This document shows, piece after piece, positions 6,481 to 50,877 of a stretch of DNA of 64,000 nucleotides. Under the pieces are notes generated by a model, which was not told where the DNA came from, searched no databases, and saw only the letters and a program-made list of their open reading frames with translations. Every line of letters starts with the position of its first letter. Within the stretch, counting starts at the first letter, position 1. Position numbers and translations under genes: made by a program. Source of the DNA: Schizophyllum amplum (Eukaryota; Basidiomycota; Agaricomycetes; Agaricales; Schizophyllaceae); contig VDMD01000054.1 of assembly GCA_007026445.1 (NCBI GenBank), forward strand, positions 1 to 64,000, given 5' to 3'.

Positions 6481-6670
6481 AGATCTGCCACGTACAAGGG
6501 TAAGTATCTTATTCGGCTCCCTCTAGCTCCGACGCTGTTCGTACATATACCATCCCGAAACGTACTTTGGTCTCTTTCAACCATCATGCCCCCTTCCTCC
6601 CCGACGCGCCCGCCGTATATCTCGTCGTCCCGTCGCCATCGACCACGATGACAACCTCGTAGGCTCACAG

Positions 6671-7876: not shown

Positions 7877-7988
7877 CGCCGCCTTTCAACTAGCGTTCTG
7901 ATGTGAGTGATTGCTATCGATTATGTCAGTTATATTGCTCAATCTAACCCCAGTGTCGCGGACCGATGCTGTCGTGGGGCTTGCAGGC

Positions 7989-8693: not shown

Positions 8694-9439
8694 TTGCGCT
8701 CGAGCTTGTATCTTGTGAGTACAATGTCGCCCTTCCTTTGTATTCCGCTAACGGTTTCAAGGAACTCGCGACATCGCTGTCGTCGTCTGGATCCTGCTAC
8801 TCTCGGGGACACGTTCGGAGTCGGGGTGGATTCCAGGGGTTTTCTCGTCGTGCCCCGAGCTCGGCGGGAGCGAGAGAGGAGGGGCGTATTCGGGGACTTG
8901 TAGCATGTTCAGGTAGGTTTAGGCACGGTAGCATTGTAGTCTGAGTAGGACACACTGTATCATCGAGTAACTGAAATGATTTGAAGGCTTTACAATGACT
9001 TGAGGCAAATACATGACAGATACAATGAAGTTGAAGTTGAATGGAATTTGCGTGACTGTGAGCTTGGTGCGGGGTTGAGGGGCGCGGGGACTCGGGCATG
9101 AAAGGCACAAACACAATTCTATTCAACTACCTACGACTACCTACACGAGCTAACTGCGCCACCAGGTTCCTTGACCTCCATAAATCCCAGCGAGTGTCCT
9201 CCCTCTCGCACAGAACGACTGCCCTGCTGCGACAAAGTGCGCCCCCGCTTCCCCGCCGTCGAGAGCTGAAGAAATGAGGTGAGTGCAGTCGCGACAAAGG
9301 CCACGTACCCCGCTCCCCCTCCGCCCATACTCGGCCGCGCATCGCACAAGCTCGCGCTATCCCTTGAGACGCGAGGACCCTCGCAGTCCCGGACTCGTCG
9401 CGACCGAGTACGAGGCGCCGCGGGCCTTGGCGGAGGGAG

Positions 9440-17440: not shown

Positions 17441-17643
17441 GATCGGCCGTGGTAGATCTGCCACGTACAAGGGTAAGTATCTTATTCGGCTCCCTCTAGC
17501 TCCGACGCTGTTCGTATATATACCATCCCGAAACGTACTTTGGTCTCTTTCAACCATCATGCCCCCTTCCTCCCCGACGCGCCCGCCGTATATCTCGTCG
17601 TCCCGTCGCCATCGACCACGATGACAACCTCGTAGGCTCACAG

Positions 17644-18869
17644 GTGAGTAGATTCTGACACGTTCCCTTCACGTCGACTGATACTTTGTCAGCCTGTGCT
17701 CAAGACCGTAGTCGGTAGCGACGTGTCCCGTTGCCGCCGTGATGGTCGAGCTCATCGTATGTCCCCCACACGCGTCCTGTACCCCGCTGACCTCGTCGCA
17801 GTCGTGCTTGTCGTTGCCATCTTGTCGAGGACGCCGTCGACGCGCTGACTACCTCTGTGGCGTCGCCGGCGTTGCGCGAGGACGACTGTGGGACGGGAGG
17901 CGCCGAGCGCCGCCATCACTGCGAGTCTTGTCGTTGATGTGGACACCGTGTTTGCTACCCTTGGTGTTGCCCTTCGGTGAGTTTCACTGTGCCTTTGTTT
18001 TGTTCTCGTATTGACGCCGGACACAGAAGTCTCGCTCGCCTGCTGATTGGCATAGACATTGTGGCACAGAGGAGATCATGGGGCGCATTTTGGTGAGTCT
18101 TTCATTGTTCGCGGCCTGACTTTTCATTGACGTTTTTGGCCAGGATTCGGTGGCGGGTGCGGGCGACTGGGCGAGACATCGCGACTCTGTGGGATGAGGG
18201 AGACGACTGCGCGGCCGGAGGCCGCGCATGGGGGCGGCGCGCAGCGGCGCCATTCTTTCGGTGAGTATCCCTTCGATTCGGCCTCGATTTCTCACTGACG
18301 TTATGCCTAGGACTCGGGTGGTGTGGTCTCGCTGCCGCCATTGCGCCCCTGGCGAGGCGAAGGAGACGCGCGCGCGGCCGGAGGCCGCGCATAGGGGCGG
18401 CGCGCAGCGCCGCCACTCTCCCCGGTGAGTGTCCCTCCGATCGCGGCAAAGCTTTTCATTAATGTCTTGTCTAGGATTCGGGTGGACAATGCTAGCGACG
18501 GGGCAGGAGATCGAGGGAGACGCGCGCACCCGGGCGGCGCGCAGCACCGCTATTTTCTCTGGTGATTTTCCTTTCGTTCGTGGCCCCGATCTTTCATTGA
18601 CGTCTCTTCAGGGGGGACAGGCCTCGGCGACGATGCAGGAAGTCGCGACGCCGCCACACGCGGGGCGAGGGAGACGCGCGCGCGGCCGGAGGCCGCGCTT
18701 TGGGGGCGGCGCGCAGCGCCGCCATTCTCCTCGTGAGTGTCTCTTCTATCGCGGCCCTCATCTTTTACTGACGTTATGGTTAGGACTCGGGTGGAGGGGT
18801 CTCAGCGGTGGCGCGGGAGGTTGCTGTGCCGCGACACGAGGGGGCGACCGCGCGGGGGGCGGCGCGTAG
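17644..18869 (+). pseudogene. Multi-intron locus of unknown function, copy B
   Basis: The introns match the other copies: 17644-17692, 17757-17801, 17977-18026, 18093-18143, 18261-18310, 18425-18474 and 18733-18783. The exons 18144-18260 (117 nt) and 18311-18424 (114 nt) keep the symmetric lengths of copy C. The fifth intron (from 18562) is damaged: its donor reads GTGATT instead of GTGAGT, and the bases holding the normal acceptor are deleted. The nearest AG is at 18610-18611. The palindromic exon sequences are retained. Confidence 0.45.
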
Positions 18870-18981
18870 CGCCGCCTTTCAACTAGCGTTCTGATGTGAG
18901 TGATTGCTATCGATTATGTCAGTTATATTGCTCAATCTAACCCCAGTGTCGCGGACCGATGCTGTCGTGGGGCTTGCAGGC

Positions 18982-19520
18982 GATAAGTATATGTATCGCC
19001 GTCCGGCGAGCGAGGTGCGTGACTGACCTGGCTGTATAAGACGTTGCTAACTGCTCTCTAGGTGATGAGTATATGTATTTGCGTCCCGCGAGCAACGTGA
19101 TCGGCGCCCCACGCTGTTCCAGCGCGCTTCGAGATGTCCTCAATGTCGCCTACATGTTCCCCCCAAGACGCCCTCAAGGCGGACTTCTTCCACCTGCGCG
19201 TCGCGCTCGCTATCGTCGGGCGTTTTATATCGCCGTCTCCTCATCAGGGCGTTCAAGCGATGGTATGTTCGCTTCCGGCGAGCAAGGTGAGTCAAATCTG
19301 TCCATGTTCTTATGTTGCTAACTTCGTACCAATTTACCCTCCTCGCCCTCAGTACTCACTCGCTTAGTCGATGAGTATGTGAATCGCCGTCCGGCGAGCG
19401 ACGTGCCCTCGCCTTTAGGACGCGCCGACGTTATCACGACGCACCTACCGTTTCCGCGACGCCCTTCTCTTGCTGCGACGGCTTAGGCGATGAGTATATA
19501 GATCGCCGTCCGGCGAGCGA
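18982..19520 (+). repeat. Degenerate 32-bp repeat array, unit B
   Basis: Four copies lie at 18982-19013, 19064-19095, 19380-19411 and 19489-19520, in the same spacing and surrounded by the same short introns as in unit A. Confidence 0.65.
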
Positions 19521-20666
19521 CTCTGGGTGAGTGTTCAGTCGTTAGTAAAGCTCGAGCTGACGAGCCTTGTAGATCTCTCGCCTTCGTCGTAAGCGATCCG
19601 CGCTTGGGAACGCCTCCAACACGCACTACACCCTCCATCTCCGCCCCCGGGCACCCGCCAAGCGACGAAGCAACGTATCGCCTTCCGGCGAGCAGGCCTT
19701 GTGACGCGTATGCCCATCTTGTGAGTACAGTGTGTCCTTATTTTGTATTTTGCTGACGTTCTTGATTAGATCGTGATTTCGCGCTGCTGACTACGTCGCC
19801 CTGCGTCGTCGGGATCCTCGCCACTCTCGGGGACATGTTCACGACCCTGGGCTCGACTCCAGGGACACCCTCGACGTGTTGAACGCCTTTCGCGACCTTG
19901 GCGACAGTGAGATAGACATACGGGACTCTATGCGGGGGCGTCGTGGACGGCCGAGGACTTTATATCACTTCTCTCTTCTAGAGCACGGTAGCACTGTAGT
20001 CGAGGAATGAAATGATTTGAAGGCTTTACAATGACTTGAAGGACTTGAATAAATCCAATGAGAGAATACTATGGCTCGAACGAATGAAATGAGGATGAAC
20101 TTGTTGAACTTGCGTGACTGTGGAAGGCTTGGCGCGGCGTTGAGAGGGCGCGGGGACTCGGGCATGAAAGGCACAGCGGCGTCGTATTCGGCACAAGCGA
20201 TTCAACCTGCGGGACGACCTCCCTCTCGCACAGAAGGGCCCCCCTCTCACACAGAGCGACTGGCACTCGTCGTCCGAGTGCGTGCGCGCTTTCCCGAAGT
20301 CGTTAGCTGAAGGAACCAGGTGAGGACAGACGGCGCGTCCTTCGCAGTCCTCGGACATGAAAGGCACCAGACGGTGTATCGGTACCTACGACTACCTACG
20401 CGACACCGCGTTCCTGGTCCCAAGAAATCCAGAGACAACCTCCCCTCCTCACAACACGACTGCCCCCGCCGCCCAAGTGCGCGCGCGCTTTCGCGGCGTC
20501 GAGAGCTGAAGAAACAAGGTCAGTGCAGCAAGGACGGCGCCTACCCTCAGCGGCAATCGGCCGCGCATCGCACAAGCTCGCGCTATCCCTTGAGACGCGA
20601 GGACCCTCGCAGTCCCGGGCTCGTCGCGACCGAGTACGAGGCGCCGCGGACCTTGGCGCGAGGGCG

Positions 20667-20950: not shown

Positions 20951-21655
20951 CCACAAAAGGAGGGATGGGCGCTAGACACCTATCAAAATCCATGCCGCTT
21001 CACCGCGCTATGACATCACGTGAGCAGTGGATCCCAGCCAACAAAGTTGAAAAGGTCAGCCGCACCAGAGGCGGGGCACATTCGGCGTCCGGGAGCGCGT
21101 CTTCGGGCAGCGTCGCGGCGGTCCATGTGGCAGAGGGATCGCATCCCTCCCGTCGACGAGTCATCCTCGCCGTCGACGAGTCATCCCTCGCCGTCGACGA
21201 GTCATCCCTCGCCGTCGACGTGCTAGCTGCAGCAGCCGCTATCAACACGCTGCTCGTCGGCCCCAGCGAGTTCCGCGAGGGCATCGGCGTGCTCGGATGC
21301 GTCACCGGCATCGGCGTACTCCGGCCTGCGTGACCGGCACTGTGAACGCGCGACCCGCGGTGAACACGCCACTCGCAGGTGCAGGCGTCGTAGGTGATGA
21401 AGGCGGCGGCGTGAGGTGATGAAGGCGGCGGCGTTGCAGGAGAGGCCGGCGGCGAGGATGAAGACGAGGCTACCGGTGGCGGCGTAGACGAGGCTACCGG
21501 TGGCGGCGTAGGCGAGCCGACAGATGGCGAAGGCGTAGGCGAGCCGACAGATGGCGAAGGCGAAGGTGACGGCGGAGGAGGCGTCGATGGTGAGGCGGGC
21601 AGCGGCGACCTGCTATGACCGGCCTCGGGGCGGGGGTCGTGTACACGAGCGCCTC

Positions 21656-22942
21656 CTACTTGGCTGCTGCCCTCACTCGACTGCTGCTGCCCTCCCTACT
21701 CGACTGCTGCGCCTCCCTACTCGACTGCTGCTGCGCCTCCCTACTCGGCTGCTGCTGCGCCCACCGTGGCGGCGGCGGCCTCGCCCACCGCACGTTCACA
21801 ATATCCACCACATCCGCCACAAACCGCGCAAGACTGTTTTGCAACGCGAACGTGTACGTCAGATTCTCCAACTTGGGCAGCAGCTCCGGCCGCGCCAGCA
21901 GCCCGCGCGCATCCGCCGCCGTCCAGCCGTGCACCTCGTCCAATGCAAGCGCGCGCAGCTCGGGGAGTGCGCGGAGGACGGCGGTCAGGACGTGCAGGTA
22001 GAGGCCGACGCCGGCGAGGGCGAGGGAGCGCAGACCCGGGCCATGACGCTCGAAGAAGGCACGCACGCGGCGCTGCGCGGGGTCCGGAATGCACGTCGGC
22101 GCCCCTGTGTCGACGGGCCGCAGGGCTAGCGTGCGCAGCGCGGGGAGATCCAGGCGGGCAAGCACGGCAGCGAGCTGCGCGACGTCCGCCGCGGCGAGAT
22201 CTAGCGCGCGCAGACTGGTGTGCGTGCACCGCGGACCGTGCATGGGGGCCTTGTGGGCCATGACGGAGAGCCGCTCGAGCGCGGGGCAGAGGTTGAGGAG
22301 GCGGAAGAGGCCATCGTACGCCAGATAGTCGCCCGTAAACTCGGTGAGCTGGGCCCAGGGGAGGGGGGCGTGCAAAGTATTGGCGACGCCCTTGAGGGTG
22401 ACGGCGCGCAGGCGGGGGGCGGCGTGGAGGAGGGCGTCGAGGGTGGCGGGGAAGAGAAACGCCTTGTGCGGGTCCACAAGCGTGAGGCGGACGAGGGCGG
22501 GGAGCGCAGCGGCGGAAGGTGGGGCGAGGATGAGATCGAGGAGATGGGGCGGGGCACTGAGTTCTGCCCAGCGCGGGCGGGCGGCGAGCAACGCATCCCA
22601 GGCGGGTGCGGGCGCTGACCGTGGTGTGACGGGGGGCGGATAAGAGAGCCGGGAGCCGGAGAGATGAACGCGGAGAGGCCGCTGGCCGGACCGGGAGACG
22701 GCGAGGTGGGCGAGGGCGTCGGCGCGCTCGCGGCGGTCGGGGGCGCCGAGGACGGCTGCGGCCCACAACGCTTGCTCGGCGAGCGCCGTCTCTCTCCAGC
22801 GCCGACATACGGCAGTCAGCGGGGTGATGGCGACCAGCGGATTGGCGCCGTCGGCCTCCATAACAGCCTGGAAGAAGAGAAAGATCTCGCCGAGCAGCTC
22901 GGGTGGTATGTGCATGATCGACGGGGCAAAGGGGTTTTCCAT
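21656..22942 (-). CDS. F-box/leucine-rich protein copy C (least damaged copy)
   Basis: From the start at 22942 this copy reads 428 residues without interruption. Residues ~8-55 form an F-box (HIPPELLGEIFLFFQ, then an Ala-rich helix with CRRW). The rest is a series of leucine-rich stretches (LVRLTL, LRAVTLKG, LERLSV, LRALDL, LRTLAL, LRSLAL and LRALAL), the usual layout of fungal F-box/LRR substrate receptors that hand proteins to SCF ubiquitin ligase. The frame can be extended upstream to 23140, but the MENPF start is preferred because all four units share it just before the F-box. The Pro/Ser/Thr tail found in copies B and D is lost by a frameshift near 21,670. The target is unknown. Confidence 0.75.
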   Translation of the reverse strand: MENPFAPSIMHIPPELLGEIFLFFQAVMEADGANPLVAITPLTAVCRRWRETALAEQALWAAAVLGAPDRRERADALAHLAVSRSGQRPLRVHLSGSRLSYPPPVTPRSAPAPAWDALLAARPRWAELSAPPHLLDLILAPPSAAALPALVRLTLVDPHKAFLFPATLDALLHAAPRLRAVTLKGVANTLHAPLPWAQLTEFTGDYLAYDGLFRLLNLCPALERLSVMAHKAPMHGPRCTHTSLRALDLAAADVAQLAAVLARLDLPALRTLALRPVDTGAPTCIPDPAQRRVRAFFERHGPGLRSLALAGVGLYLHVLTAVLRALPELRALALDEVHGWTAADARGLLARPELLPKLENLTYTFALQNSLARFVADVVDIVNVRWARPPPPRWAQQQPSREAQQQSSREAQQSSREGSSSRVRAAAK

Positions 22943-23149
22943 GTCGGAGGGGGCGATGGTGGCAATGAGCTCGACGGTGAGCTCGACGATGTCAATGAGG
23001 AGGATGGGGCGAGCGGCGACGACGACGACGGTGACGAGACGACGATGGGAGGTGACAACAGGGGAAGACAATGCTGGCCGCCATGACGCTTGCACGTGTC
23101 TACCCGCTTGGACCCAGTCTCGACTGTCTCGTGCGCTCATTGTTCTCCC

Positions 23150-25340
23150 AAGTCGAACCGTTGCCGATCGACACCACTCTGACTCTCATGGTATGACGCG
23201 GCTTCGCTGACGGTCGCCGCCGACAGCGCCCTGGCCGTCCGGTGATCAACGTCCAGGGGGCCATCGCCCTCGCCGCCTCTCCTGTCCTCTCATCCATCTT
23301 GTATTCCCCGTCCTCCACGCATTCCCTCTCACCCCAACCTTCGAAAGCTTTACAAGAGACGAGAGGGTGGGCGGCAAAGGGGGAAGGCGCCGCTTAATTT
23401 AGGGCCTCGTGACGGGAACGATACTCAAACGTGAGGGGTCGAAGGCGAGAGTTGCCGCGAAGCGCAAGTCAAAGGGAGGAGGGCGGGGAGGGGGAAGGCT
23501 CCGTGAACGGACAAGGTTCCGTGAAGGCGAGACAGGCACGACTCGTACACAATAACGTAGGTAGAACATGTAAGTAAGTAGAAGCATGCAATACATGCCA
23601 TTAGCAACTGTCCCCCCCTCTCCCTCTCCCCTTCGCCCCTCCACTCCCATTCGCCCCTCCCCTCCTCCCTCGCGCCCTCCACTCCCCCCTTGCCCCTCGC
23701 CCTCAACACCCCCTCCCTCCTCCCGCCTCCCACCGCAAACTCGTTAACGTACTTGAAAAGAACTTCGATTGCATCAAGTCTACCTACGTTGTACCTACCC
23801 TGACCTATTTCGTGCAAGACTTTCGTCTTCCGCCCACCCCACCTGTCTCGATCACCCACTCCGTCTACCACCCCCCCCCCCTTCCGCTCCTCTCTCTACC
23901 TTCCTGTCTCCCCCCCTCGCCTTCATAAATCCTGCTCCCTCCCGCACAAGACCTCCCCCTTCTCGCACAACGCCCCCCCTCCCGCACGCTCTAACTGCCC
24001 CCGTACCTCGCCCCCGTGAAAGTAAAATCTTCGTAAGTAAAATCGACCGCTCCAGCATAAATAAATCAACCCGCCCTCCCTCGTAAGAGAAAATCCACCG
24101 CCCTCGCAAAAACAAGAAGATAATCTAGAAAGCAGGCGAGTCAGTAAAACGGTCGCCGGGAAGAATATAATGTGACCGACTTACGAGTGGTCAACTCGCG
24201 GGTTGACGAACGGTGTATTGGGAGCGACAGGGGACGGGAGAGGGCGACGGACTTATCCCAGAATATCCGAGTCGAACACCGGCTCCATTAATGCGAAGGT
24301 AACCTAGAAAGGAATAGAGTCAGCACGACTGTCGGAAAAATAAACTCAATACGATTTACTTACCGATAGTAGGAGCTCGCGCGTCGAGGAACCGCGTATT
24401 GGCAACGACGAGGGAGGGGCAACGGGAGCAGTCAACATGGACCCCGTCAGAGCAAAAGTAACCTTGAAAGACAGTCAGCACGACGATCACGATAAGCGCG
24501 ACATGACGCCTCACCGAAAGCACAGCGTAGCGCCTCACGACGAGCGCAGCTTAACGCCTCACCGAAAGCCTTGACGAATAAGGACAGGTGGGTGTTTGCA
24601 AAGTTGATGTGCGGTGAAGTTGATGTGCGGCGAAATCGATGTGCGGTCGTGACACCGAGGGACCGCGATGCATGGACACTAGGCAGGGGGAGGAGCGAAG
24701 ATGACACGCTCAGCAACGGCGGGGCGCGCCTTCAAGAACGGCGGGGCACACCTTTAACTGCGGCGGGGCACGCCATTAACTGCGGCGGGAAACGCCTTCA
24801 ACAACGACGGGGCGCGCCTTCGTCAACGGCGGGACGCGCCTTCTACGACGACGGGCACGCTTTCAACAACGGCAGGGCCCTAGACAAGGCTGAAATAAAC
24901 AATCAGGAACACGAAGAATAAGGATCAAAAGACCCGCGACGCACCGTGTTGGATCCCAGCAAGAATACTCCAACGAACCGGGCGAGGAGCGCGATGTCGT
25001 GGAGGACTCTCCGGCGCGGCGCATGAGCGAGCTTGACAACCCCTGCAATATAGAGATCAGCAACTATCAGACGAGCAAGGTAGCAGTTAGACTCACGGTG
25101 CCACGGCGAGCTCGACGTCCAAGCCGACGAGGAAGACGTCCTAGTCATCCAGCGGAGGTCCGCGTCGGGCTCGACGATGTCCAGAACGGTGTGCGAAAGT
25201 CCGAGTGAGAGTCGAAGGCGAGGCGGCGGCGGCGGAGAACAGGACAACGGCGGCGAGAGAATGGCCGCGAGAGAAGGGCGGCGGGAGGAAGTCGACGAGG
25301 GGGAAAACGCAGGAGCGCTGGCTCTCAACCACCCCATCCC
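23150..25340. repeat. Intergenic block of unit C with minisatellites
   Basis: This block is nearly identical to 11,990-14,230, including the CT-rich stretch, three 16-bp units (24,600-24,647) and the ~22-bp array (about 24,714-24,875). No gene was recognised. Confidence 0.6.
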
Positions 25341-28300
25341 CCCGACCCTTATACCCCACGCGAACAACCTTTCCAACCTCCTTGAAACGCACACGTCAGT
25401 GGCCCATCTAGTCACCGGCTACCGAACAGCGCGCACCGCAAATCGGGGGTCGAGATCGACTTACGAAAGGGCGGAAGATTCGGTGGCGCGGCTGCGTTCA
25501 GGGGGTTGGTTTTCGAACATTGAACACGCATCTGTTTCCCCGGGTCGCGCGCTGTCGTCGATGCATGTCCGCCGAGTACGGGTGGTCGTACAAGTCCGCG
25601 GGGAAGGGATGGCAGCATGGCAGGCTGAACTTTGCGTTCAAATGGTTTGGCGATGTTCTAGATGAGCACAACGTTCAGTGAACCTTCGCCGGGCAACAAT
25701 CATACGTACCCTACTTCCTACTTGACGCGTTCCGCGGCCGAGAATCCCGCGACCGCAACCCACGAAAATCGAGGTGAACGTTGAAGACAACAACGTAAGG
25801 CCCTTTCCCCATCGGGATATCCTTGTTGTTGAACAAGGCGATGCCAGCGAACGCGCCTCTGGCGCGTCGTCCCCGCCGCTCTCCTGCTCAGCTCAGGTAC
25901 GAGACTTCTAGGAAACCTCGGAGACGCGTATCCCCGGCGTGTTCAGGTAGAATTAGCGTTCCCTGCGCTGTGTAAGTCGCTGTGAATGAGCAGGTAAATG
26001 AAAACGAACATGTTGAGGATGCGAGGGCAGCGCGGAGCCTGTCGCTTCGTGTCGGCGATACGGGGACCCGAGTAGGCTAGCGCTAGACTATCCGAGGGGC
26101 CGGCGAGCGCGGAAATGGACGAGAGGAAGGTGGAAGATTCGGGGCTCGACAGCTTGTATGCGCGATGGCATGGGCGTGCGGCCGTCGGCGGTCGGCGACG
26201 GATCGCCAGAATATTCGAACCTCCTGAATGAGTCATCAGTGTTTCAGGAGTGAGCGCAACAGGATCACTGCAGGAGGTATGAGGTAGGGAGTGAGGAGGA
26301 AAGGGTGGTGCATAGCGAGGCTTGCAGGCGTCGGGGGCGCCCCAGAATTCACAGAGAGTGTCGCATATACTCACGTGACATAACCTGGTATGTTTCACCG
26401 GCGAAGAGAAGAAAGCAAACGTGTTACGGGCGAGACGAAAACGACGCCACATAATGAAATCGCCCTTCCGCGCGCCATAGCACTCGCTGCAAGCTGCGGA
26501 GGAACGTGGCGCATAGTGATCCTCGCTCAGTTCATCCTGTAAAGTCGATTTTGCGTGGGGAATATTTTAGGAAGGGATGTCAACTTATGACCTTGAAGAC
26601 GTCGAGTTCCGCATACAAACATCCTCGACCTTCCAGAACGATAAGACAAAAGCTTGATCTCGCCCATCGGCGTGACGTACGCGAGTTCTGAAGCGAGATG
26701 ACGTTGACGAGATACTCGCACGGCCCATCGCGGCACTTGGCGAGGACGCGGTCGCGCTCCGGAGGGTAGAGACCCGTTTTTGGCGTGCGGCGGGAATGTT
26801 CTACGAGTTGCAAAGCATCCAGGATGGTGGCGGCGTTCTAGAGCGGTAGATATGTATCGGAGGATGAGGGGAGCCGAAAAGCGTTTTGTCCGAGGCGGCG
26901 GAGGCGCGCGATGGGTGAGGAGGACATGGATGATGGGGACAAGTTGAACTTCGGCGTACCGGACCGACTGCGACGATCACCGCCATCATCGCCCACGGAA
27001 CGATATCTGCGTCGAGGTCTTCATTTCTATCTTGCAGAGGGCCCACTTTCTGTTGATTCCCTGCTTGTTTGAGTGCTTCCGCTCCTCGAACGACTTTACC
27101 AGCCTCGAAATTGGCGAGCAAGTCCTCAGCTCACCCGAACACCGCTTCATGTCCGACGACCGTCCTGATCGGCAACGTACAGCGAGGCTATCTAGGTTAC
27201 CTTGCCGCCGGGCCCTGATCTACGCGCTGAGGACGTCATCTGGCTGAATTAGGTAGGCCTTGTTGAACCAGCCGCGGTGGCGCGCACAGCGCCGGGAGCG
27301 ACTCGTGCTTTCGCATGCCGTGTATGCAGCAGCGGCGCGTCTTCCGCCACCACTTTGACAATACTTTGATGTTGCTCGTGGTTTGCGCGCAGGCTGGCGG
27401 GGTACGAGTGAGTGCAATCATCAAAGTTCGATGTTAAACGGCGGAGAGGCGAGCGTTCACCACACGACCTCTTGCGTCCGATCTATCAGCGACGTCAGCG
27501 TACTCGGTTCGCGAGATGAAGAGATGACGGAAGGAACGTACGAGGAAGATTCGGAAGAACGGTAGAGTCAGGAGGTTGGAAACGCGAGTGTGAGTGTGCA
27601 TGTTGACGAGCAGATTTCAGCCGCACGGCTGCGCCGCCGTCGACTGATGGTGGCGCGGAATGATGTGGGACGTAGTGCGAGGATGTACGTCAGACTGCGC
27701 GCGCGCTTGAAGGAGGCACGGAGACGGAAGATTCGGGGTGACAGGCGAGCGGGAAGGCGGGGAAGGGTGTGGCGCGTAAGTTGCGCGAGAGAGTCCGTGG
27801 CGGAATGCTCGTTCTCGTGCTCTTGTCGCACGTAGGCCATGACGAGCAGAGCTCTCAAATATTCATACTTCAGGACGGGGATAGCACAAGGTCCAGCTCG
27901 TACTGCAGGACTTGGTGATTTCACTTGAATACAGTGTCCTGGGCTTTCGCATCGAGACGTGGGCTGATAGCGCCCGTCCGCGCATCGCTTCCGAGTAGGT
28001 ACGCATCTTCCGTGCGTCAAACTCCCGGAGAACTGCTCAGGAGGTCGGAAAGCGTGTGTACACACCGCAGAGGGTGAGAACTTTTGCTCGCGCTAGTTGC
28101 GCCCCGCCAGCGATGTTATGCAAAGTTCAGCGGATCCAGTGCTGCGGCCGCGCTCTAAATTTTAATGAAGTGTCAATAAAATGGGCTGAGCCGAATAGGC
28201 GGTTTTTTGGGGTGAAAGGAGCGTACGGTGAGCGTGAAGGAGGCGGAAGATGGCCACGAAGTTGAACTTCGGTGCCCGGACCGACTGCCGACATCCATTG

Positions 28301-28500
28301 TTCTCTTTGCTCCCGACCATCACAAGTGTTTGCGCAACTTCGCCAATAATTGATATTTGGTGTTATTCTTCTCAAAGCTGATTTTGAGGCTCTCTGTGGC
28401 TCTCATCCCGCTGGAGGCGATACGAGAACAGGTAAGAATCTGAACATCTCCGAGGCTGCGCCTCATCCGCGGCCGAATAACGACACCATTGTTGAAGATC
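25340..28500. repeat. Conserved block of unit C with minus-strand open frames of unknown status
   Basis: This block is equivalent to 3300-6480 and 14,230-17,440. From about 25,520 to 25,900 it follows unit A closely rather than unit B. The minus-strand frames starting MWRRFRLA (26452) and MLANFEAGKVVR (27121) are present. No product was recognised. Confidence 0.45.
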
Positions 28501-28905
28501 GGCCAAGGTAGATCTGCCACGTACAAGGGTAAGTATCTTATTCGGCTCCCTCTAGCTCCGACGCTGTTCGTATATATACCATCCCGAAACGTACTTTGGT
28601 CTCTTTCAACCATCATGCCCCCTTCCTCCCCGACGCGCCCGCCGTATATCTCGTCGTCCCGTCGCCATCGACCACGATGACAACCTCGTAGGCTCACAGG
28701 TGAGTAGATTCTGACACGATCCCTTCACGTCGACTGATACTTTGTCAGCCTGTGCTCAAGACCGTAGTCGGTAGCGACGTGTCGCGTTGCCGCCGTGATG
28801 GTCGAGCTCATCGTATGTCCCCACACACGCGTCCTGTACCCCGCTGACCTCGTCGCAGTCGTGCTTGTCGTTGCCATCTTGTCGAGGACGCCGTCGACGC
28901 GCTGA

Positions 28906-29935
28906 CTACCTCTGTGGCGTCGCCGGCGTTGCGCGAGGACGACTGCGGGACGGGAGGCGCCGAGCGCCGCCATCACTGCGAGTCTTGTCGTTGATGTGGA
29001 CGCCGTGTTTGCTACCCTTGGTGTTGCCCTTCGGTGAGTTTCACTGTGCCTTTGTTTTGTTCTCGTATTGACGCCGGACACAGAAGTCTCGCTCGCCTGC
29101 TGATTGGCATAGACATTGTGGCACAGAGGAGATCATGGGGCGCATTTTGGTGAGTCTTTCATTGTTCGCGGCGCTGACTTTTCATTGACGTTTTTGGCCA
29201 GGATTCGGTGGCGGGTGCGGGCGACTGGGCGAGACATCGCGACTCTGTGGGATGAGGGAGACCACTGCGCGGCCGGAGGCCGCGCATGGGGGCGGCGCGC
29301 AGCGGCGCCATTCTTTCGGTGAGTATCCCTTCGATTCGGCCTCGATTTCTCGCTGACGTTATGCCTAGGACTCGGGTGGTGTGGTCTCGCTGCCGCCATT
29401 GCGCTCCTGGCGAGGCGAAGGAGACGCGCGCGCGGCCGGAGGCCGCGCATAGGGGCGGCGCGCAGCGCCGCCACTCTCCCTGGTGAGTGTCCCTCCGATC
29501 GCGGCAAAGCTTTTCATTAATGTCTTGTTTAGGATTCGGGTGGACAATGCTAGCGACGGGGCAGGAGATCGAGGGAGACGCGCGCACCCGGGCGGCGCGC
29601 AGCACCGCTATTTTCTCTGGTGAGTTTCCTTTCGTTCGTGGCCCCGATCTTTCATTGACGTCTTGGGTAGGCTTCAGGGGGGACAAGCCTCGGCGACGAT
29701 GCAGGAAGTCGCGACGCCGCCACACGCGGGGCGAGGGAGACGCGCGCGCGGCCGGAGGCCGCGCTTTGGGGGCGGCGCGCAGCGCCGCCATTCTCCTCGT
29801 GAGTGTCTCTTCTATCGCGGCCCTCATCTTTTACTGACGTTATGGTTAGGACTCGGGTGGAGGGGTCTCAGCGATGGCGCGGGAGGTTGCTGTGCCGCGA
29901 CACGAGGGGGCGACCGCGCGGGGGGCGGCGCGTAG
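28906..29935 (+). CDS. Unrecognised spliced gene with repeated palindrome-bearing exons, copy C (5' end not found)
   Basis: Seven exon segments (28906-29033, 29084-29149, 29202-29318, 29369-29482, 29533-29619, 29671-29798 and 29850-29935) join into a single open frame of 241 codons ending in TAG at 29933-29935. The joins use consensus introns of 50-52 nt with GTGAGT donors and TAG or CAG ends. Four internal exons are 66, 117, 114 and 87 nt, all multiples of three and all in the same phase, as expected if coding exons had been duplicated. Exons start alike (IR or TR plus V) and end alike (RRHSPR-type), and carry the palindromes at about 29430-29448 and 29454-29472. The product is Arg/Gly/Ala-rich. 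Upstream, the same frame meets a TGA at 28903-28905, and no start codon was identified, so the 5' exon is missing or the locus is degenerate. No known domain was recognised. Confidence 0.4.
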
Positions 29936-30047
29936 CGCCGCCTTTCAACTAGCGTTCTGATGTGAGTGATTGCTATCGATTATGTCAGCTATGTTGCTCA
30001 ATCTAACCCCAGTGTCGCGGACCGATGCTGTCGTGGGGCTTGCAGGC

Positions 30048-30568
30048 GATAAGTATATGTATCGCCGTCCGGCGAGCGAGGTGCGTGACTGACCTGGCTG
30101 TATAAGACGTTGCTGACTGCTCTCTAGGTGATGAGTATATGTATTTGCGTCCCGCGAGCAACGTGATCGGCGCCCCATGCTGTTCCAGCGCGCTTCGAGA
30201 TGTCCTCAATGTTCCCCCAAGACGCCCTCAAGACGGACTTCTTCCACCTGCGCGTCGCGCCTCGCTATCGTCGGGCGTTCTATATCGCCGTCTCCTCATC
30301 AGGGCGTTCAAGCGATGCCTTCCGGCGAGCAAGGTGAGTCAAATCTGTCCATGTTCTTTATGTTGCTAACTTCGTACCAATATACCCTCCTCGCCCTCAG
30401 TACTCACTCGCTTAGTCGATGAGTATGTGAATCGCCGTCCGGCGAGCGACGTGCCCTCGCCTTTAGGACGCGCCGACGTTATCACGACGCACCTACCGTT
30501 TCCGCGACGCCCTTCTCTTGCTGCGACGGCTTAGGCGATGAGTATATAGATCGCCGTCCGCCGAGCGA
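30048..30568 (+). repeat. Degenerate 32-bp repeat array, unit C
   Basis: Four copies lie at 30048-30079, 30130-30161, 30418-30449 and 30537-30568, with the same flanking short introns as in units A and B. Confidence 0.65.
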
Positions 30569-31582
30569 CTCTTGGTGAGTGTTCAGTCGTTAGTAAAGCT
30601 CGAGCTGACGAGCCTTGTAGATCTCTCGCCTTCGTCGTAAGCGATCCGCGCTTGGGAACGCCTCCAACACGCACTACACCCTCCATCTCCGCCCCCGGGC
30701 ACCCGCCAAGCGACGAAGCAACGTATCGCCTTCCGGCGAGCAGGCCTTGTGACGCGTATGCCCATCTTGTGAGTACAGTGTGTCCTTATTTTGTATTGAT
30801 CGTGATTTCGCGCTGCTGACTACGTCGCCCTGCGTCGTCGGGATCCTCGCCACTCTCGGGGACATGTTCACGACCCTGGGCTCGACTCCAGGAACACCCT
30901 CGATGTGTTGAACGCCTTTCGCGACCTTGGCGACAGTGAGATAGACATACGGGACTCTACGCGGGGGCGTCGTGGACGGTCGAGGACTTTATATCACTTC
31001 TAGCACTGTAGTCAGAGTAGGACACCACTGTATAGTCGAGGAATGAAATGATTTGAAGGCTTTACAATGACTTGAAGGACTTGAACAAATACGATGCGAG
31101 CATACAATGGCTTGAAATTAATGAAGTTGAACTTGTTGAATTTGCGTGACTGTGAGAGGCTTGGCGCGGCGTTGAGAGGGCGCGGGGACTCGGGCATGAA
31201 AGGCACCGCACAAAACAACCACATTCTCAATTCCAAGACTACCTACCGACTACCCTACGGCGAGCTAAACCGCTTGCGCCCACACCCATTCGGTTACCTA
31301 GACTACCTACGCGACACCGCGTTCCTGGTCCCAAGAAATCCCAGAGACAACCCTCCCTCTCCTCACAACACGACTGCCCCCGCCGCCCAAGTGCGCGCGC
31401 GCTTTCGCGGCGTCGAGAGCTGAAGAAACAAGGTCAGTGCAGCAAGGACGAGCGACCTACCCTCAGCGGCAATCGGCCGCGCATCGCACAAGCTCGCGCT
31501 ATCCCTTGAGACGCGAGGACCCTCGCAGTCCCGGGCTCGTCGCGACCGAGTACGAGGCGCCGCGGACCTTGGCGCGAGGGCG

Positions 31583-31589
31583 TATATAA
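31583..31589 (+). promoter_or_regulatory. Candidate TATA box, unit C
   Basis: TATATAA is followed by the conserved CT-rich tract, as in unit B. Confidence 0.45.
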
Positions 31590-31814
31590 GGCCTCCCATC
31601 TCGTCCTTCCCTCCACCATCCCTCCCCCCTCGCCTTGTCGCTGGTCGTGCCCGCTGCCGTCAGTCGTGCCGCCGTCCTGCTCGCCGTCACGCTGGACCTA
31701 TGTTGGGGGAGATCATGCCGGTCGGGGGTATCTGGGGGTCATGCTGCTTGTGTGCCGGGGAGGCTAAGTCCGTACCTACACTCGTCCCATACCTACCTGT
31801 ATTTGTCGTGGCAC

Positions 31815-31859
31815 GCCCCCGGACATGGGCCCCTGTAGGGGGAACCCATGTTCGGGGGC
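31815..31859. repeat. Large GC-rich hairpin, unit C
   Basis: The stem and loop are the same as at 9690-9734 and 20906-20950, beyond the 3' end of F-box copy D. Confidence 0.85.
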
Positions 31860-31964
31860 CCACAAAAGGAGGGATGGGCGCTAGACACCTATCAAAATCC
31901 ATGCCGCTTCACCGCGCTATCACATCACGTGAGCAGTGCATCCCAGCCAACAAAGTTGAAAAGG

Positions 31965-33846
31965 TCAGCACGCACGCGAGGAGGGCGGGGGCACATACGT
32001 GGTACGGGAGGGCGACTCGGCATCCTCGTCGGATTCGGCTCCTGTGGCAGAGGAGTCATCCCTCGCCGTCGACGAGTCATCCCTCATCGCAGAGGAGTCA
32101 TCCCTCATCGCCGACGTGTCATCCCTCGCCGTCGACGTGCTAGCTGCAGCAGCCGCTATCAACACACTGCTCGTCGGCCCCAGCGAGTTCCGCGTAGGCA
32201 TCGGCGTACTCGGATGCGTCACCGGCACAGTAAAGGCGCGACCTGCAAGCGAAGGCGTGGTGATTGTTGTGGTGGTGGTGAACACGCCACTCGCAGGTGC
32301 AGGCGTCGTAGGTGATGAAGGCGGCGGCGTTGCAGGAGAAGCCGGCGGCGAGGATGAAGACGAGGCTACCGGTGGCGGCGTAGACGAGCCAACAGATGGC
32401 GAAGGCGTAGGCGAGCCAACAGATGGCGAAGGCGAAGGCGAGCCGACAGATGGCGAAGGCGTAGGCGAGCCGACAGATGGCGAAGGCGAAGGCGACGGCG
32501 GAGGAGGCGTCGATGGTGACGCAGGTAGCGCCGAGCCTGCTATGACCGGCCTCGGGGCGGGGGTCGTGTAGACCAGAGCCTCCCTACTTGGCTGCTGCAC
32601 CTCCCTACTCGGCTGCTGCTGCGCCTGTCTACTCGACGGCTGCACCTCCCTATTCAGCTGCTGCTGCGCCCACCGTGGCGGCGGCGGCCTCGCCCACCGC
32701 ATGTTCACAATATCCACCACATCCGCCACAAATCGCGCAAGACTGTTCTGCAACGCGAACGTATACGTCAGATTTTCCAACTTGGGCAGCAGCTCCGGCC
32801 GCGCCAGCAACCCGCGCGCATCCGCCGCCGTCCAGCCGTGCACCTCGTCTAATGCAAGCGCGCGCAGCTCGGGGAGTGCGCGGAGGACGGCGGTCAGGAC
32901 GTGCAGGTAGAGGCCAACGCCGGCGAGGGCGAGGGAGCGCAGACCCGGACCGTGACGCTCGAAAAAGGCACGCACGCGGCGCTGCGCGGGGTCCGGGATA
33001 CACGTCGGCGCCCCTGTGTCGACGGGCCGCAGAGCTAGCGTGCGCAGCGCGGGGAGATCAAGGCGGGCGAGGACGGCAGCAAGCTGCGCGACGTCCGCCG
33101 CGGCGAGATCGAGCGCGCGCAGACTGGTGTGCGTGCACCGCGGGCCGTGCATGGGGGCCTTGTGGGCCATGACGGAGAGCCGCTCGAGCGCGGGGCAGAG
33201 GTTGAGGAGACGGAAGAGGCCATCGTACGCCAGATAGTCGCCCGTAAACTCCGTGAGCTGGGCCCAGGGGAGGGGGGCGTGCAAAGTATTGGCGACGCCC
33301 TTGAGGGTGACGGCGCGCAGGCGGGGGGCGGCGTGGAGGAGGGCGTCGAGGGTGGCGGGGAAGAGAAAGCCTTGTGCGGGTCGACGAGCGTGAGGCGGAC
33401 GAGGGCGGGGAGCGCGCGGCGGAAGGTGGGGCGAGGATGAGATCGAGGAGATGGGGCGGGCGCAGAGTTCTGCCCAGCGCGGGCGGGCGGCGAGCAACGC
33501 ATCCCAGGCGGGTGCGGGTGCTGACCGTGGTGTGACGGGGGGCGGATAGGAGAGCCGGGAGCCGGAGAGATGGACGCGGAGAGGCCGCTGGCCGGACCGG
33601 GAGACGGCGAGGTGGGCGAGGGCGTCGGCGCGCTCGCGGCGGTCGGGGGCGCCGAGGACGGCTGCGGCCCACAACGCTTGCTCGGCGAGCGCCGTCTCTC
33701 TCCACGCCGGCATACGGTTGTCAGCGGGGTGATGGCGACCAGGGATTGGCGCCGTCGGCCTCCATAACAGCCTGGAAGAAGAGAAAGATCTCGCCGAGCA
33801 GCTCGGGTGGTATGTGCATGATCGACGGGGCAAAGGGGTTTTCCAT
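31965..33846 (-). pseudogene. F-box/leucine-rich protein copy D with shifted N-terminal half
   Basis: The C-terminal two thirds match copy C in frame and extend further. The tail has four repeats of the type GSPTPSPSV, a Pro/Ser/Thr-rich stretch and four RDDSS-type heptads, and ends at 31965. In the N-terminal half, small indels throw the MENPF start (33846) and the F-box out of frame: one G is missing near 33,857, and further changes lie near 33,700, 33,460, 33,415 and 33,367. As read, no single frame joins the F-box to the leucine-rich part. This copy shows the full length that the family probably had. Confidence 0.7.
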
Positions 33847-34472
33847 GTCGGAGGGGCGATGGTGGCAATGAGCTCGACGGTGAGCTCGACGATGTCAATG
33901 AGGAGGATGGGGCGAGCGGCGACGGCGACGACGGTGACGAGACGACGATGGGAGGTGACAACAGGGGAAGACTGACAATGAAGTGCTGGCTGCCATGACG
34001 CTTGCACGTGTCTACCCGCTTGGACACCGTCGGTCGGTCTCGACTCTCGACTTGTCTCGTGCGCTCATTGTTCTCGCAAGTCCAACTGTTGCCGAGCTAT
34101 CCGCCTAACCAGCGCCACTCTCCATAGATCACTTTTTGTCAGTTTGTGGGTGGCTGCGCTCGCTGAGACCGGGACACGCCAGAAGGCTTATGTCCAGTAA
34201 TCAGGCTGAAGTCTCATTCGAGTCGCAGCTTACGAGATACTCAACTGTACTTTACACCTTCACATGCACAGTTGGGCCACAGAACACTGAACGCGAAACA
34301 CTTGTACCGGTAATACTAACTGTAAGAAACTCGAAAACTATGAATGAAACGCTTGTATAACATGGCAAAACAAACACGCCGGATCGGGCTATCGGCGGCT
34401 CTCAATCGCATCCTTGCTTCACCCATTCATTGTTCTTTCTGGGCAGGACCCATTCTTTCGCTGGCCGAATTC

Positions 34473-36989
34473 ATGTTTGCTATCTTATTATCCGTCGCTC
34501 TTGCTGCTGTCGACGTTGCGCTGGCCGCACCGATCCCAGATGCGCCCTTTGTGTTTGTTCCACCCACGCCGGTGGTCACCTCGTCCACGATCATTTCGTC
34601 CGCGCCCGCGTCCGTGGTCACGCTGCCCGCGCCAGTGATCACCGGCACCGGCCAGCCCTTGCTCGTTCAACCGCCAACGCCCACCTCCTGGGCCGCACCC
34701 GCACAGATGAGCGATCTCGCCGCCTTCAACATCTCGCACTTCGCCGCCGGCTCAGCCAACCTCCGCCTCGCCACCCTCGCGCCCGAAGCCCATCCCCCAC
34801 CCGCCGATCCCTTCACTCTCTTCTCCTCCGACTCCAACTCTACCAGCTCCTCCTCCAACTCCTCCTCCCGCACCGCCCTCCAACTCCTCTACCCCGCCGA
34901 CTCCATCAACCCCGGCGCGCCCGCCGCCGACCACCCCCTCGGCGGCGCCGAGTTCTACGCCACCCCGCTCGACCTCCGCACCGCGTCCTCCGTCACCCTC
35001 ACCTACGCCGTCTACTTCCCGCCCGCCTTCGACTGGGTCCTCGGCGGGAAGCTTCCGGGCCTCTACGGCGGGCGGCGCGGCTGCTCCGGCGGCGACGCGG
35101 CGGAGGACTGCTTCAGCACGCGGCTCATGTGGCGGAAGGGCGGGGTGGGCGAGCTGTATTTGTACGCGCCCAAGGCGGCGCAGCCGGCGTCGTTGTGTGG
35201 GGCTCCGGGCTCGGTGTGCGATGCTGCTTGGGGGCTGTCTATTGGTCGTGGGGCGTTTCGTTGGGTCGCGGGCGCGTGGACGACTGTTAGTCAGACCGTC
35301 AGGCTGAACACGCCGGGCAAAGCGGACGGAGGCTTCGCTCTGGACGTTGACGGCATACGTGTGGTGGAGAGGAGCGATGTATACTACAGGGGGTTGGGGA
35401 CAATTGTGGAGCCGACGCCGACCGACGCGACGCCCACGCCGACCGACGCGAAACCGACATCGACCAAGCACAAACACCACCACCCCAAACCTACGCCTAC
35501 TCCCGACCCGGGAGACGACGGGGACGATGATGACGATGATGGTGGACTGCTGGGCATCCTGGGCAGCCTGGCGGGTGCGTTGGACGATAACGGCGGCGAG
35601 GGCAAGGGCGTGTTGGACGATGACGGCGAGAGCGCCTTGGACGATGACGGCGAGGGCGACTCCCTGCCTGGTACTTCTGACGACGATGCTGCGCTAGCGA
35701 ACTTGGGGGCGACTGTTGCGATCCCGCTTACCAGCGCGACGATGTCTGCGGCTTCGTCAGCATCACCGACTTCCACTGCATCCCCGACTTCCTCAGTTTC
35801 GGATGACAAAGCCCCAGGCCTCGGCGACCAAGGACAAGCAGTCGGGGCCGCCGCGGCCGCGATGATGGCGGCTGAGAGCGCGATGATGGCGGCTGGCGAG
35901 AGCGCGATGGCGGCTGGCGGGACGGCGCAGGTGGCGTGGGGGATGCCGAGTGCTACTGCTGTTACTGCGAGTGCTACTGTTACTGCGAGTGCTTCTTCGA
36001 CGGCGACAAGCGCGGACTCGACGGTGACAAGCGCGTCTTCGACGGCGAATGAGGCTTCGTCAATGACCACTAGCGTTTCTTCGACGACCCCGACGTCTTC
36101 TTTTGCGACGACCACGATGACTGCTTCTGCGACGACTTCGACGACTGCTTCTGGGACGACTTCGACGACGGCTTCTTCGACGACCACGGCAACTGCTTCT
36201 GCGACGACAGTCGACGCCGCTTCGACGACAGTCGACGCTGCTTCTGCGACGACCTCGACGACTGCTCCTGATCCTAGTCTCCTCGGCATGCAAGCGGGCG
36301 GGGATGCCGATACGCAAGGCGACGGGGATGGCGATACGCAAAACGACGGCGGTTTGCTGGATCCTTCTGACGGCGGATTGCTGGATCCCTCGGACGGCGG
36401 GGTGCTGGGTCCCTCTGACGGCGGTCTGCTGAGTCCCTCTGATGGCGGGCTCCTGGGTCCCTCTGACGGTGGAGAACAAGACGGCGAACCACAAGAGCAA
36501 GACGGCGAACCACAAGACACACCGCCAGTACCGCATCCGGCCGGCTTCGAGGGCTTGTTCTTCAGGTGCGTAGGCTCTGCGATGATCAACGCGTGCTACG
36601 TATTGCTCGATGTTCTGCGCGACTGGGTGCTCTCGGCTCGTCTCGTTGCTCTGTGCTCTGCTCTGGTTGCCCCGCATATCCTGGTGCTTGCGTGCTTGCG
36701 TCTTTCGTGCGGTGTTCTGGCACCACCACACGAGCTTCTATGTTAACTTGGGCTCTCTTCTCTCCTTGTCGTGTCCCCTCTCTCCTCGTCATGCCGACCT
36801 TCTCGTCGTTCCGACCTTCTCGTCGTTCCAACTTTCTCCCCGTCAATCCAACTTCCTGTTCATGATCACCTGTCGCATAAACTAACAACCTCATACAGCA
36901 CTTTCTTCGGCGGGCACGAGGAAGCGTGGGCAACACCGGTCGAACAGCATGTGCTCTTCAAGGATTTTGCGATCGTGCGGAATGCGTGA
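34473..36989 (+). CDS. Secreted polysaccharide lyase, PL14-like, with a long low-complexity insert
   Basis: The coding sequence is exon 34473-36565, a 333-nt intron (GTGCGT donor, CTAAC branch, CAG end) and exon 36899-36989, giving 727 residues. The start was chosen because it opens a signal peptide (MFAILLSVALAAVDVALAA). The frame also extends to 34344 without a signal. The body has features I associate with fungal PL14 lyases: LQLLYPADSINPG, GGAEFYATPLDL, GGKLPGLYGGR, CFSTRLMWR, GELYLYAP, YGLSIGRG-like GLSIGRGAF and VRLNTPG. The last strand, STFFGGHEEAWATP to FKDFAIV, is supplied by exon 2. About 370 residues of Pro/Asp-rich and Ser/Thr/Ala-rich sequence, with five DGGLLDPS-type repeats near 36,350-36,470, separate this strand from the rest. 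It probably acts on uronic-acid polysaccharides outside the cell by beta-elimination, but the substrate cannot be read. Confidence 0.88.
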
Positions 36990-45821: not shown

Positions 45822-45908
45822 CGCGCGTAGAGTGAATCTGATGGAAATTTGGCGGGAGTCAGGATGATCACCTTCTGAATCCGGTCCAGGTCTTTGTTCT
45901 GATCCGTC
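45822..45908. promoter_or_regulatory. Short divergent promoter between GWT1 and an F-box gene
   Basis: Only 87 bp separate the two predicted start codons, so the genes must share or overlap their control sequences. No clear TATA box is visible. Confidence 0.5.
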
Positions 45909-47565
45909 ATGTCGTCCGACGACGAGCCTGCCGCGGGGTTGCTATCTCTCCCAGCAGAACTCTTGCTTGGAATCCAGTCTCTACTTGAACCTTTGGATGT
46001 CGCAGCTCTGCAATCGGCAAGTTTCCAGCTACAGACATCGGCGCAACTGACAAATTAGAACAGACATGCACGACACTCCAAGGCCCCTCGATCTGTCGTG
46101 CGGTCTGGTTGAACACGCTGCGACAGGTCATGGACCGGAACGATGTGTTCACACCGACCTTCCCTCTGGACGAAATGACGATCTCCGAGCTACGCTATGC
46201 TGCCATCCGACCGCAGGTCTTCCTACGCCGTCTCAAGCGATGCGCCTCGGAAGCGGTCGATGCAATTGGCTACCTGAAATACTCCGCCCTGCGTGCAATC
46301 GATCTCTACTGGCCTACGCATCCAGAACACGTCGAAGAACATATTTGGAGCGTCATTCTGCTCCCTGGAGGGCGATACCTGCTTGTAGTGACGCATCTTA
46401 ATCTCTACGTGCACGATCTGGGACAATGCACCGGCTCACTCAAGCAAGAACCCATCTTTGTTCTTCCAAAAGCAGATCTACAGCCTGTCGCTCAAGGGAT
46501 TGGCTGGGCGCTCGACTTTCACGTCGTCGACGGCAATGATATCCTTCTGTTCTTTTCCGCGCCTTTGCCATTTGACATCGCGTGCGTGTGGTCGTTTGCA
46601 ACTTGTCAGCCTCTGCACTGTCGCTGAGCAGTTTGCAGGAGCCATAGTCCAACATCGATCATTGTGTACAAGATTTACGACGTACCTCTAGCACCGAAGG
46701 GCGAACAAATTGCATGTCTTACTCTGCCGGACTCGAATATTGTCAGGCTGAACTCGTCCTACCTTCCAACTCGACGCGTTGCCTTCACCATCGAACCGAA
46801 TATCATTGGCGTGTGGGATTATGAGAATAACAATATAGCATTATGGAACTGCCCCGATAATTGGTGCTTGGCAGGCGAATTGGTACGTGAGTTTCTGTCT
46901 ATTGTGCTCCTCCGCTGACTCGGACACAGTGCGTCATGACGCCGAACAGAATTATCCTACGCAACCACAAGTCAGGCCTGCTAGTATATGACATCCCGCC
47001 CCTCCTGCCAGTCTCGTCTGCGCTCGCTCCGAGATACAGGGCGCCTATCCGCACCCTGGATGACCCGGGTCGCAATCTTCGTATTCATACTCTCTACCAC
47101 CGGAGCAGCGGCGCATTTATCTTCGATTTCTACCTGGTCAACCTCCTAGGCGGAAAGCTCGTGCGATATCGCATTGCAGAGATTCAGGACGACTCCGGTA
47201 GCTACATGGGACCAATCCGGCATGCATGCTTCCCCTGGTTAGAGGATCAATTTGGAGACGACAATCCGCTGCCTCTTCGCGCACTCGAAGGCACCACAGT
47301 GGCCACGGTGTATGACGGCGGTCACGAAGACCTCTCGTTTGACGAAGACACAGTCCACTCCACGATCCACATCGAGGACAGGGACCCGCATTCCGAAGAC
47401 GAAGGGGAAGGAAATGCGTGTCTGGTCAAGCTGCTAGATCGACGCGATCCGGTCTGGGCGAACCGGAAGTTGGGCAAGGTCGACTTCTGTCCCGCGTCGG
47501 GTCGCCTGTGCGAACTGGACGGCACGCGCTTGCTCGTCTTTGATTATCTCCCACCTCCGAGTTAG
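45909..47565 (+). CDS. F-box protein of a second family, copy 2
   Basis: Exons 45909-46016, 46064-46581, 46648-46882 and 46930-47565 give 498 residues. The N-terminus has an F-box (LLSLPAELLLGIQSLLEPLDVAAL ... TCTTLQGPSICRAVW). The rest, with segments such as VILLPGGRYLLVVTHLNLYV, FHVVDGNDILLFF, IEPNIIGVWDYENNNIALW and SGLLVYDIPP, looks like the beta-rich half of fungal F-box proteins, possibly a propeller. It is probably an SCF substrate receptor with unknown target. The first intron appears to begin with GC (TCG then GCAAGT) where copy 3 has GTAAGT. It has a close relative in opposite orientation at 49181-50851. Confidence 0.85.
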
Positions 47566-47921
47566 GCATAGCCAGGATGTCACATTCATATCAAGCAATG
47601 TCTTGACACCGTCCCAGGCCTTGAAAGTAAAGGTCCTAACCACCGAGCTTGCTCAAATTGGAACAAGGGTTTCTTGTTTTGGACACAATTCAAGAGCTGG
47701 ACGTACTTACTGCAGGCTCTTTGCCAGTCCGATCCATTGTAGGAGCTGAGCACGACATGCTTGCTCGTCCTCCCATCTTGAACATACAGTACTGATTTTG
47801 CCGATTCTGCCTGAATCCGTCCGACGCGGTTGTCGTAGGCGGACGGACGTCACCAAGTTGCACGCACGAACAATCCTTCCAGAGTCCAGCCATATCAACA
47901 AGGTGAATCTACAGTGCACAA
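47566..47921. other. Intergenic, convergent 3' ends
   Basis: No gene was seen. A stretch at about 47,655-47,700 (AAGGGTTTCTTGTTTTGGAC) is similar in inverted orientation to 49,036-49,070, so the inverted F-box duplication includes some 3' flank. Confidence 0.5.
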
Positions 47922-48967: not shown

Positions 48968-49180
48968 GATGGTGGAACGCGTGAAGGAACGCGTCAAGCT
49001 AGCGTATGGACAGGCGGCCCGAATGGGCCGGGCGGAATTATGTCCAAAACAGGCAACTCTTGTTCTACTCGACAATTTCCCATGCTTGTTTGCGCAAGCT
49101 CTGTGACTCTGACCTTTACTTTGGAGGCCTGGTACGGCGTCAAAAGACTGTTTCATATGGATGGTGCATCCTGATTCTGT

Positions 49181-50851: not shown

Positions 50852-50877
50852 GACGGATCGAAGCAAAGACCGGAATA

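Follow-up and report, generated by a model that had tools for sequence, protein, structure and literature searches.

What does a GC-rich stretch of the Schizophyllum amplum genome produce, if the removal of introns turns it into one long open reading frame? The stretch occupies positions 28906–29935 of the window (the 64,000 nucleotides of contig VDMD01000054.1, here C260, in assembly GCA_007026445.1) and falls in the third unit of a tandem array of ~11 kb units that covers window positions 1–34095. The original prediction saw in it either a new spliced gene family, read as coding for protein, or the remains of one. To place it, 22 gene copies from 13 loci were compared (C260, C1, C112, C281, two on C236, C239, C223, C277, C179, C137, C106 and C256), and genome-wide searches covered 49.65 Mb in 309 contigs. 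A GWT1 gene had its best named matches, of 292 proteins found, in Schizophyllum commune at 51% identity, as would be expected of an agaric fungus. Copies inside one array were closely alike, and one of them, C112g, which is close to C112f, was omitted from the intron, frame, indel and hairpin counts.

The six proposed introns lie where they had been placed, are 50–52 nt long and all run from GTGAGT to AG. Their removal joins seven pieces (28906–29033, exons 4 to 8 as listed below, and 29850–29935; 128, 66, 117, 114, 87, 128 and 86 nt in order) into 726 nt, which is 241 codons plus a stop, and four internal pieces are indeed multiples of three (66, 117, 114 and 87 nt). When introns were called by a simple score covering donor, branch-site and acceptor signals, this third copy had 11 strong introns between 28700 and 30620 on the + strand and none on the opposite strand; two of them precede the stretch (28700 and 28813) and three follow it (29962, 30081 and 30575). 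The stretch thus appears to be the middle of a longer TATA-driven, multiply spliced gene from about 28600 to 31200, which we infer to be transcribed. Its start exon had been given as missing; a TATA box was found upstream and, beginning at ~28600, two further exons and the start of a third. The parts of the predicted gene and its two other copies in the window are as follows.

6570–8900, + strand: spliced RNA gene, first copy (predicted; extent by offset)
17516–20110, + strand: spliced RNA gene, second copy (predicted; extent by offset)
28567–28576, + strand: TATA box (gtatatatac) of the third copy; pairwise identity 0.84 among 13 representatives
28600–28699 (start approximate), + strand: exon 1, with the conserved start region TTTCAACCATCATGCCCCC
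28700–28748, + strand: intron 1, GT..AG in 11 of 12 ungapped representatives
28749–28812, + strand: exon 2, by intron score
28813–28858, + strand: intron 2, GT..AG in 9 of 10 ungapped representatives
28859–29033, + strand: exon 3, within which the predicted stretch begins
29034–29083, + strand: intron 3, GT..AG in 12 of 13 representatives
29084–29149, + strand: exon 4
29150–29201, + strand: intron 4, by intron score
29202–29318, + strand: exon 5, perfect hairpin at 29267–29285
29319–29368, + strand: intron 5, by intron score
29369–29482, + strand: exon 6, perfect hairpins at 29430–29448 and 29454–29472
29483–29532, + strand: intron 6, by intron score
29533–29619, + strand: exon 7, without a perfect hairpin
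29620–29670, + strand: intron 7, by intron score
29671–29798, + strand: exon 8, perfect hairpins at 29746–29764 and 29771–29789
29799–29849, + strand: intron 8, by intron score
29850–29961, + strand: exon 9, holding the stop of the open frame and, close to the 3' end of the exon, a single perfect hairpin
29962–30012, + strand: intron 9, by intron score
30013–30080, + strand: exon 10, with a second hairpin class (GGCGAT...ATCGCC)
30081–30127, + strand: intron 10, by intron score
30128–30574, + strand: exon or exons; a further intron, seen by eye and below score in this copy, is likely near 30334–30400
30575–30620, + strand: last strong intron of the third copy, by intron score
30621–31200 (end approximate), + strand: 3' part of the transcript; a block at 31078–31206 is conserved in several arrays

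The same exon set recurs in the other two window units, altered in both as judged by the intron score. The first lacks an equivalent of the intron at 29483 and has a 44-nt exon instead of the 66-nt one; the second lacks an equivalent of the intron at 29620, and its intron 2 falls below score. Across the 22 copies, 173 introns were scored on the forward strand and 1 on the reverse, compared with 0.082 per shuffled copy in dinucleotide shuffles (220 shuffles of the 22 copies); the 173 are not independent, because the copies are related.

The product of this gene is very probably a noncoding RNA and not a protein. The 241 open codons lie within chance, since the spliced RNA, shuffled 50 times by mononucleotide, gave frames of 161 codons on average and of up to 306, and a frame of this length can arise by chance because the exons are GC-rich. 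Internal exons of other copies fall into all length classes modulo three, and in pairwise alignments of spliced RNAs below 90% identity, 4199 of the 4774 indels were not multiples of three, a count made at low gap costs in which related pairs are counted repeatedly and are thus not independent. By eye, the first ATG is missing in 5 of 21 copies. In translated comparison, the other two window units match the 241-residue frame well in part, other arrays match it in two or three frames and mostly at 30–40% identity, and no frame is kept across arrays. The protein-coding reading is therefore unsupported, because its frame is within chance and unkept across arrays and most indels are off-three. Despite the open codons, the four pieces in threes and the frame shared in part by the two other window units, a new protein-coding family built from symmetric, repeated exons is very improbable, given also that the repeated exons do not share one frame across their hairpin part.

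Minus-strand open frames of 207, 223 and 242 amino acids were considered and rejected: no minus-strand introns were scored in the three window copies, and the one such frame put to Pfam gave no match. Rfam returned no match over its gathering score in the whole window, and no matching family was found for the spliced gene. What appears to stand of the original prediction, as far as sequence can tell, is a spliced gene family that matches nothing found; its reading as protein is not supported.

Is this gene still maintained, or only persisting? Among 13 representatives, mean pairwise identity was 0.76 at donors, 0.69 at branch sites and 0.82 at acceptors, with 0.48 for the remainder of the introns and 0.48 for exons. 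Splice-site columns together averaged 0.746, a value reached by none of 20000 random column sets. A once-functional spliced gene in decay, its splice sites persisting through recent common descent only, would account for the introns or donors lost in some copies (U1, U2, C239a and C106) and for the close likeness of copies within an array. Between arrays, however, exons have diverged to ~0.48, while the splice sites (0.746) and the TATA box (0.84) are far more conserved, so that the idea of a mere remnant is not favoured and we consider decay quite unlikely. The conserved splice sites and promoter instead fit selection for the splicing of a noncoding RNA.

Comparison between arrays shows that the gene belongs to a noncoding element, here E, of ~8.5–10 kb with two divergent spliced units. 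In the third window unit, E extends from ~23.6 kb to 31933 and carries three conserved TATA boxes. Its other parts, and the cut gene copies on either side, are these.

21025–23170, − strand: internal cut F-box/LRR-like copy between two elements
23600–25340, − strand: second, divergent spliced unit of E (predicted); TATA at ~25353, introns starting at 25096, 24944, 24363 and 24184
25340–28566, no strand assigned: shared upstream region, with a conserved block at 25764–26979 that has no codon periodicity
31583–31590, + strand: third TATA box, present in 18 of 18 units read
31805–31933, + strand: right end of E, a long conserved hairpin with a sharp terminus, CATCACGTGAG, at 31923–31933
31968–34095, − strand: last F-box/LRR-like copy together with the region upstream of it, the gene being cut on the 3' side; the array ends at 34095

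The second spliced unit had its TATA box in all 12 units read and three to five scored introns in each, with none on the opposite strand; in the two C239 units, one scored intron lies upstream of the TATA box. A conserved protein elsewhere in E was also considered, as frames there looked alike by eye, and was rejected for the block tested: substitutions in 25764–26979 were about equal by position modulo three in four comparisons (for example, 65/53/54), against 29/5/3 in an F-box control.

The right-end block of ~130 bases is more conserved than the rest of E (91–99% identity across the aligned portion of 39 further scored copies), folds into its hairpin with a z of −3.8 and has no Rfam match. 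E terminates sharply at this point in all six arrays aligned, and its left end is ragged. A motif just before the terminus (up to two mismatches; reversed control, 0) located at least 56 right ends on 20 contigs, some of which are probably parts of one array, for example, C23 and C260. Many copies stand in tandem arrays with units of 10.5–12.5 kb, often near contig ends. On the four array-bearing contigs longer than 1 Mb that were counted, all seven arrays lay within 297 kb of an end, in a count that leaves out C255 and C299; simulation gave 1.5e-5 for the largest distance, with the 297 kb limit set by the data.

Between successive elements lie host genes, and the arrays that could be assigned carry different ones: F-box-like, DNA-ligase-like, SET, Lon, PLD, bestrophin and Ost-alpha. 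Matches over the Pfam curated cut-off were obtained for SET (C2), phospholipase D (C223), Lon (C277), Ost-alpha (C179) and bestrophin (C239), whereas the F-box/LRR-like gene of the window (22.7 bits against a cut-off of 24.3) and the DNA-ligase-like gene of C112 (20.2 against 26.2) came out under it. We call the C112 gene DNA-ligase-like mainly on sequence motifs, because its match is under the cut-off and C112 was not listed in the genome-wide search with the DNA ligase family. From sequence features, we presume a hydrolase on C1, a DHTKD1-like gene in the second C236 array (C236d) and a TCF25-like gene on C137. Pfam gave no family for the frames tested from C1, the first C236 array, C46 and C137, in a survey that left out C256 and the right C223 array. 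In all seven arrays with a Pfam match (two of them under the cut-off), the host gene runs antisense to the + strand gene of E.

The left end of the array holds a longer copy of the host gene in all six arrays examined (C1, C236d, C112, C23/C260, C239 and C277). These longer copies are apparently full, a judgement made by eye for all but Lon, for which Pfam domains were used: on C277, the proteolytic domain accompanies only one of the three substrate-binding domains on the contig. Other copies keep the 5' part of the gene and stop, where this could be measured, at or within ~160 nt of the right end of E; gene copies differ by about 2–10%. A second Lon gene with both domains, on C295, is 96.9% identical to that on C277 over 3.9 kb and also lies beside E sequence. 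C295 is perhaps the other haplotype of C277, and both haplotypes may be present in parts of the assembly. No empty site without E was found, the candidate, the Lon locus on C295, itself carrying E.

Some further observations concern the cut genes and the surroundings of the array. Two cut F-box-like copies in the window (21701–22950 and 32401–33900) differ by 37 changes, 29 of them at third codon positions, and by seven indels, none a multiple of three; the third-position bias looks like the outcome of selection, or of conversion of these copies by the longer one. The frame of the cut gene runs into the right end of E as SRDVIGR plus a stop in the last C112 copy and the right C236d copy. A window frame at 21003–21050 ends in SRDVIAR, which may not be the frame of the gene, and C1 differs. 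To the right of the array, a polysaccharide lyase 14 gene occupies window positions 34461–36743, and on C23 (L053:4595–4999), past the left end of the array, a sequence resembling its N-terminal part runs in the opposite direction, so that two inverted copies may flank the array. A separate 1.8 kb inverted repeat outside the array (45885–47657 and 49089–50874) is 81% identical between its arms.

How might an element come to alternate with one full and several cut copies of a gene? From the arrangement of the arrays we infer both mobility and a crossover route. A circle of E together with the 5' part of a gene would enter by a single crossover (insertion–duplication), leaving a full gene, E and a cut gene with the native upstream region; unequal crossing-over between the gene copies would then build tandem arrays of 10.5–12.5 kb units. 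Such a circle could be made by a Helitron-like route. An LTR retrotransposon was rejected, as the flanking direct repeats in the arrays read are different host genes and not the same terminal repeats.

E could itself be a non-autonomous rolling-circle (Helitron-like) element, in which read-through of an end captured the 5' part of the gene and the circle re-entered by homology. The genome encodes Helitron-type Rep domains (18 Helitron_like_N matches), a hairpin lies near the precise end of E, and for fungal Helitrons gene capture by end bypass, terminal hairpins, circular forms and tandem copies are described (PMC5148889). Yet none of the 18 Rep matches falls at the listed E positions, the nearest on a shared contig being ~63 kb away; no Rep, helicase or other protein signal was found in E. 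Its right end, CATCACGTGAG, is not CTRR, no asymmetric terminal repeat was found, and no inverted copy of the right end occurs near the left of E in the eight units scanned. We regard this identity as unlikely.

The exons of the spliced gene have a second unusual property. The perfect palindromes reported in the stretch, with 8-bp stems and 3-nt loops, are present, five in all (starting at 29267, 29430, 29454, 29746 and 29771), and such palindromes, short GC hairpins with which many exons end, sit shortly upstream of 5' splice sites. Across copies, a perfect hairpin of this form was found at 53 of 180 exon ends and in none of 180 introns, compared with 7 of 3600 shuffles. Genome-wide, 150 and 240 matches were counted for the two commonest palindromes and none for their reversed patterns; among the matches listed, many positions are spaced at 11–12 kb. 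In 63 double hairpins, 97.8% of 942 cells pair, although these hairpins were chosen with palindrome-like patterns, which favours intact stems; two-sided changes account for 12 cells, 11 of them at one base pair. Likeness to the majority in the double hairpins was 97% in stem columns, 83% in loops and 67% in flanks. The hairpins are kept, and may be so either as RNA or as DNA. Single stem changes do not favour the RNA strand (17 C>T and 11 G>A), and loops are sometimes inverted, with TGC for GCA in L010, L014, L023 and L025. Because there is no RNA-strand bias and loops are at times inverted, the palindromes may be kept at the DNA level. The inverted TGC loops look as if the loop of the hairpin had been flipped in place. 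Fold energies of five single exons were near those of shuffles (z of −0.6 to −1.4).

The absence of a strand bias and the inverted loops would suit a selfish noncoding repeat whose RNAs are incidental by-products and whose palindromes arise from, or serve, DNA processes such as replication, recombination or cruciform formation; the tandem arrays and the lack of a protein signal found in E also agree with it. Against this, the perfect hairpins concentrate at exon ends and are absent from the 180 introns, and the splice sites are conserved, which implies that the processed RNA matters. On balance an incidental RNA seems rather unlikely to us.

The account that we prefer, and think probable as a whole, is of a TATA-driven spliced noncoding RNA gene within E, lying beside host genes in arrays made by crossover, whose RNA is a hairpin scaffold. 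The splice structure, the lack of a coding signal, the hairpins, the right boundary and the gene–E–gene layout are read in the sequence itself. By analogy, and from the apparent selection for splicing, the most likely role of the RNA would be that of a modular scaffold that acts in cis, on the array it comes from, its repeated hairpins binding many copies of one protein. A more far-reaching form of this account, which we offer only tentatively, is that E is a new, protein-free type of genome resident that yields two spliced noncoding RNAs of its own. It would settle at host genes by bringing along, or producing, a copy of their 5' part, with one full gene always remaining, and the hairpin RNA would be the part of E that acts, by holding the array together or guarding it in cis.

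Nothing recognised as E turned up in the titles and abstract starts of the open-access papers listed. Macrosatellites such as D4Z4 consist of tandem units several kilobases long, lie near a chromosome end and may include a gene or a noncoding transcript. The E arrays resemble them in unit size, tandem layout and nearness to an end, but differ in that one noncoding module is common to many arrays with different host genes, and in that a single longer gene copy stands with several cut ones in the arrays examined. The noncoding transcripts predicted for E near contig ends also recall the subtelomeric lncRNAs reported for yeast Y' regions (PMC5932542). For the RNA itself, the nearest analogy, and no more than that, is repeat A of the Xist lncRNA, a row of short hairpin motifs in a noncoding RNA (PMC8786293). 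Unlike those of Xist, the hairpins of the predicted E gene are distributed across its exons, a short way ahead of 5' splice sites, and the gene is present in tens of copies.

If this account is correct, a fungal genome would contain a spliced noncoding RNA gene in dozens of copies, which a protein-based annotation would overlook and which shows how spliced RNA can mimic a gene for protein. A noncoding element would lodge at ordinary genes, some of them probably essential and including Lon, SET, PLD and bestrophin, with one copy left apparently whole. This would be a route to partial gene duplication without a transposase in the element, and E would offer a tractable system in which to follow the evolution of multicopy, modular hairpin RNAs.
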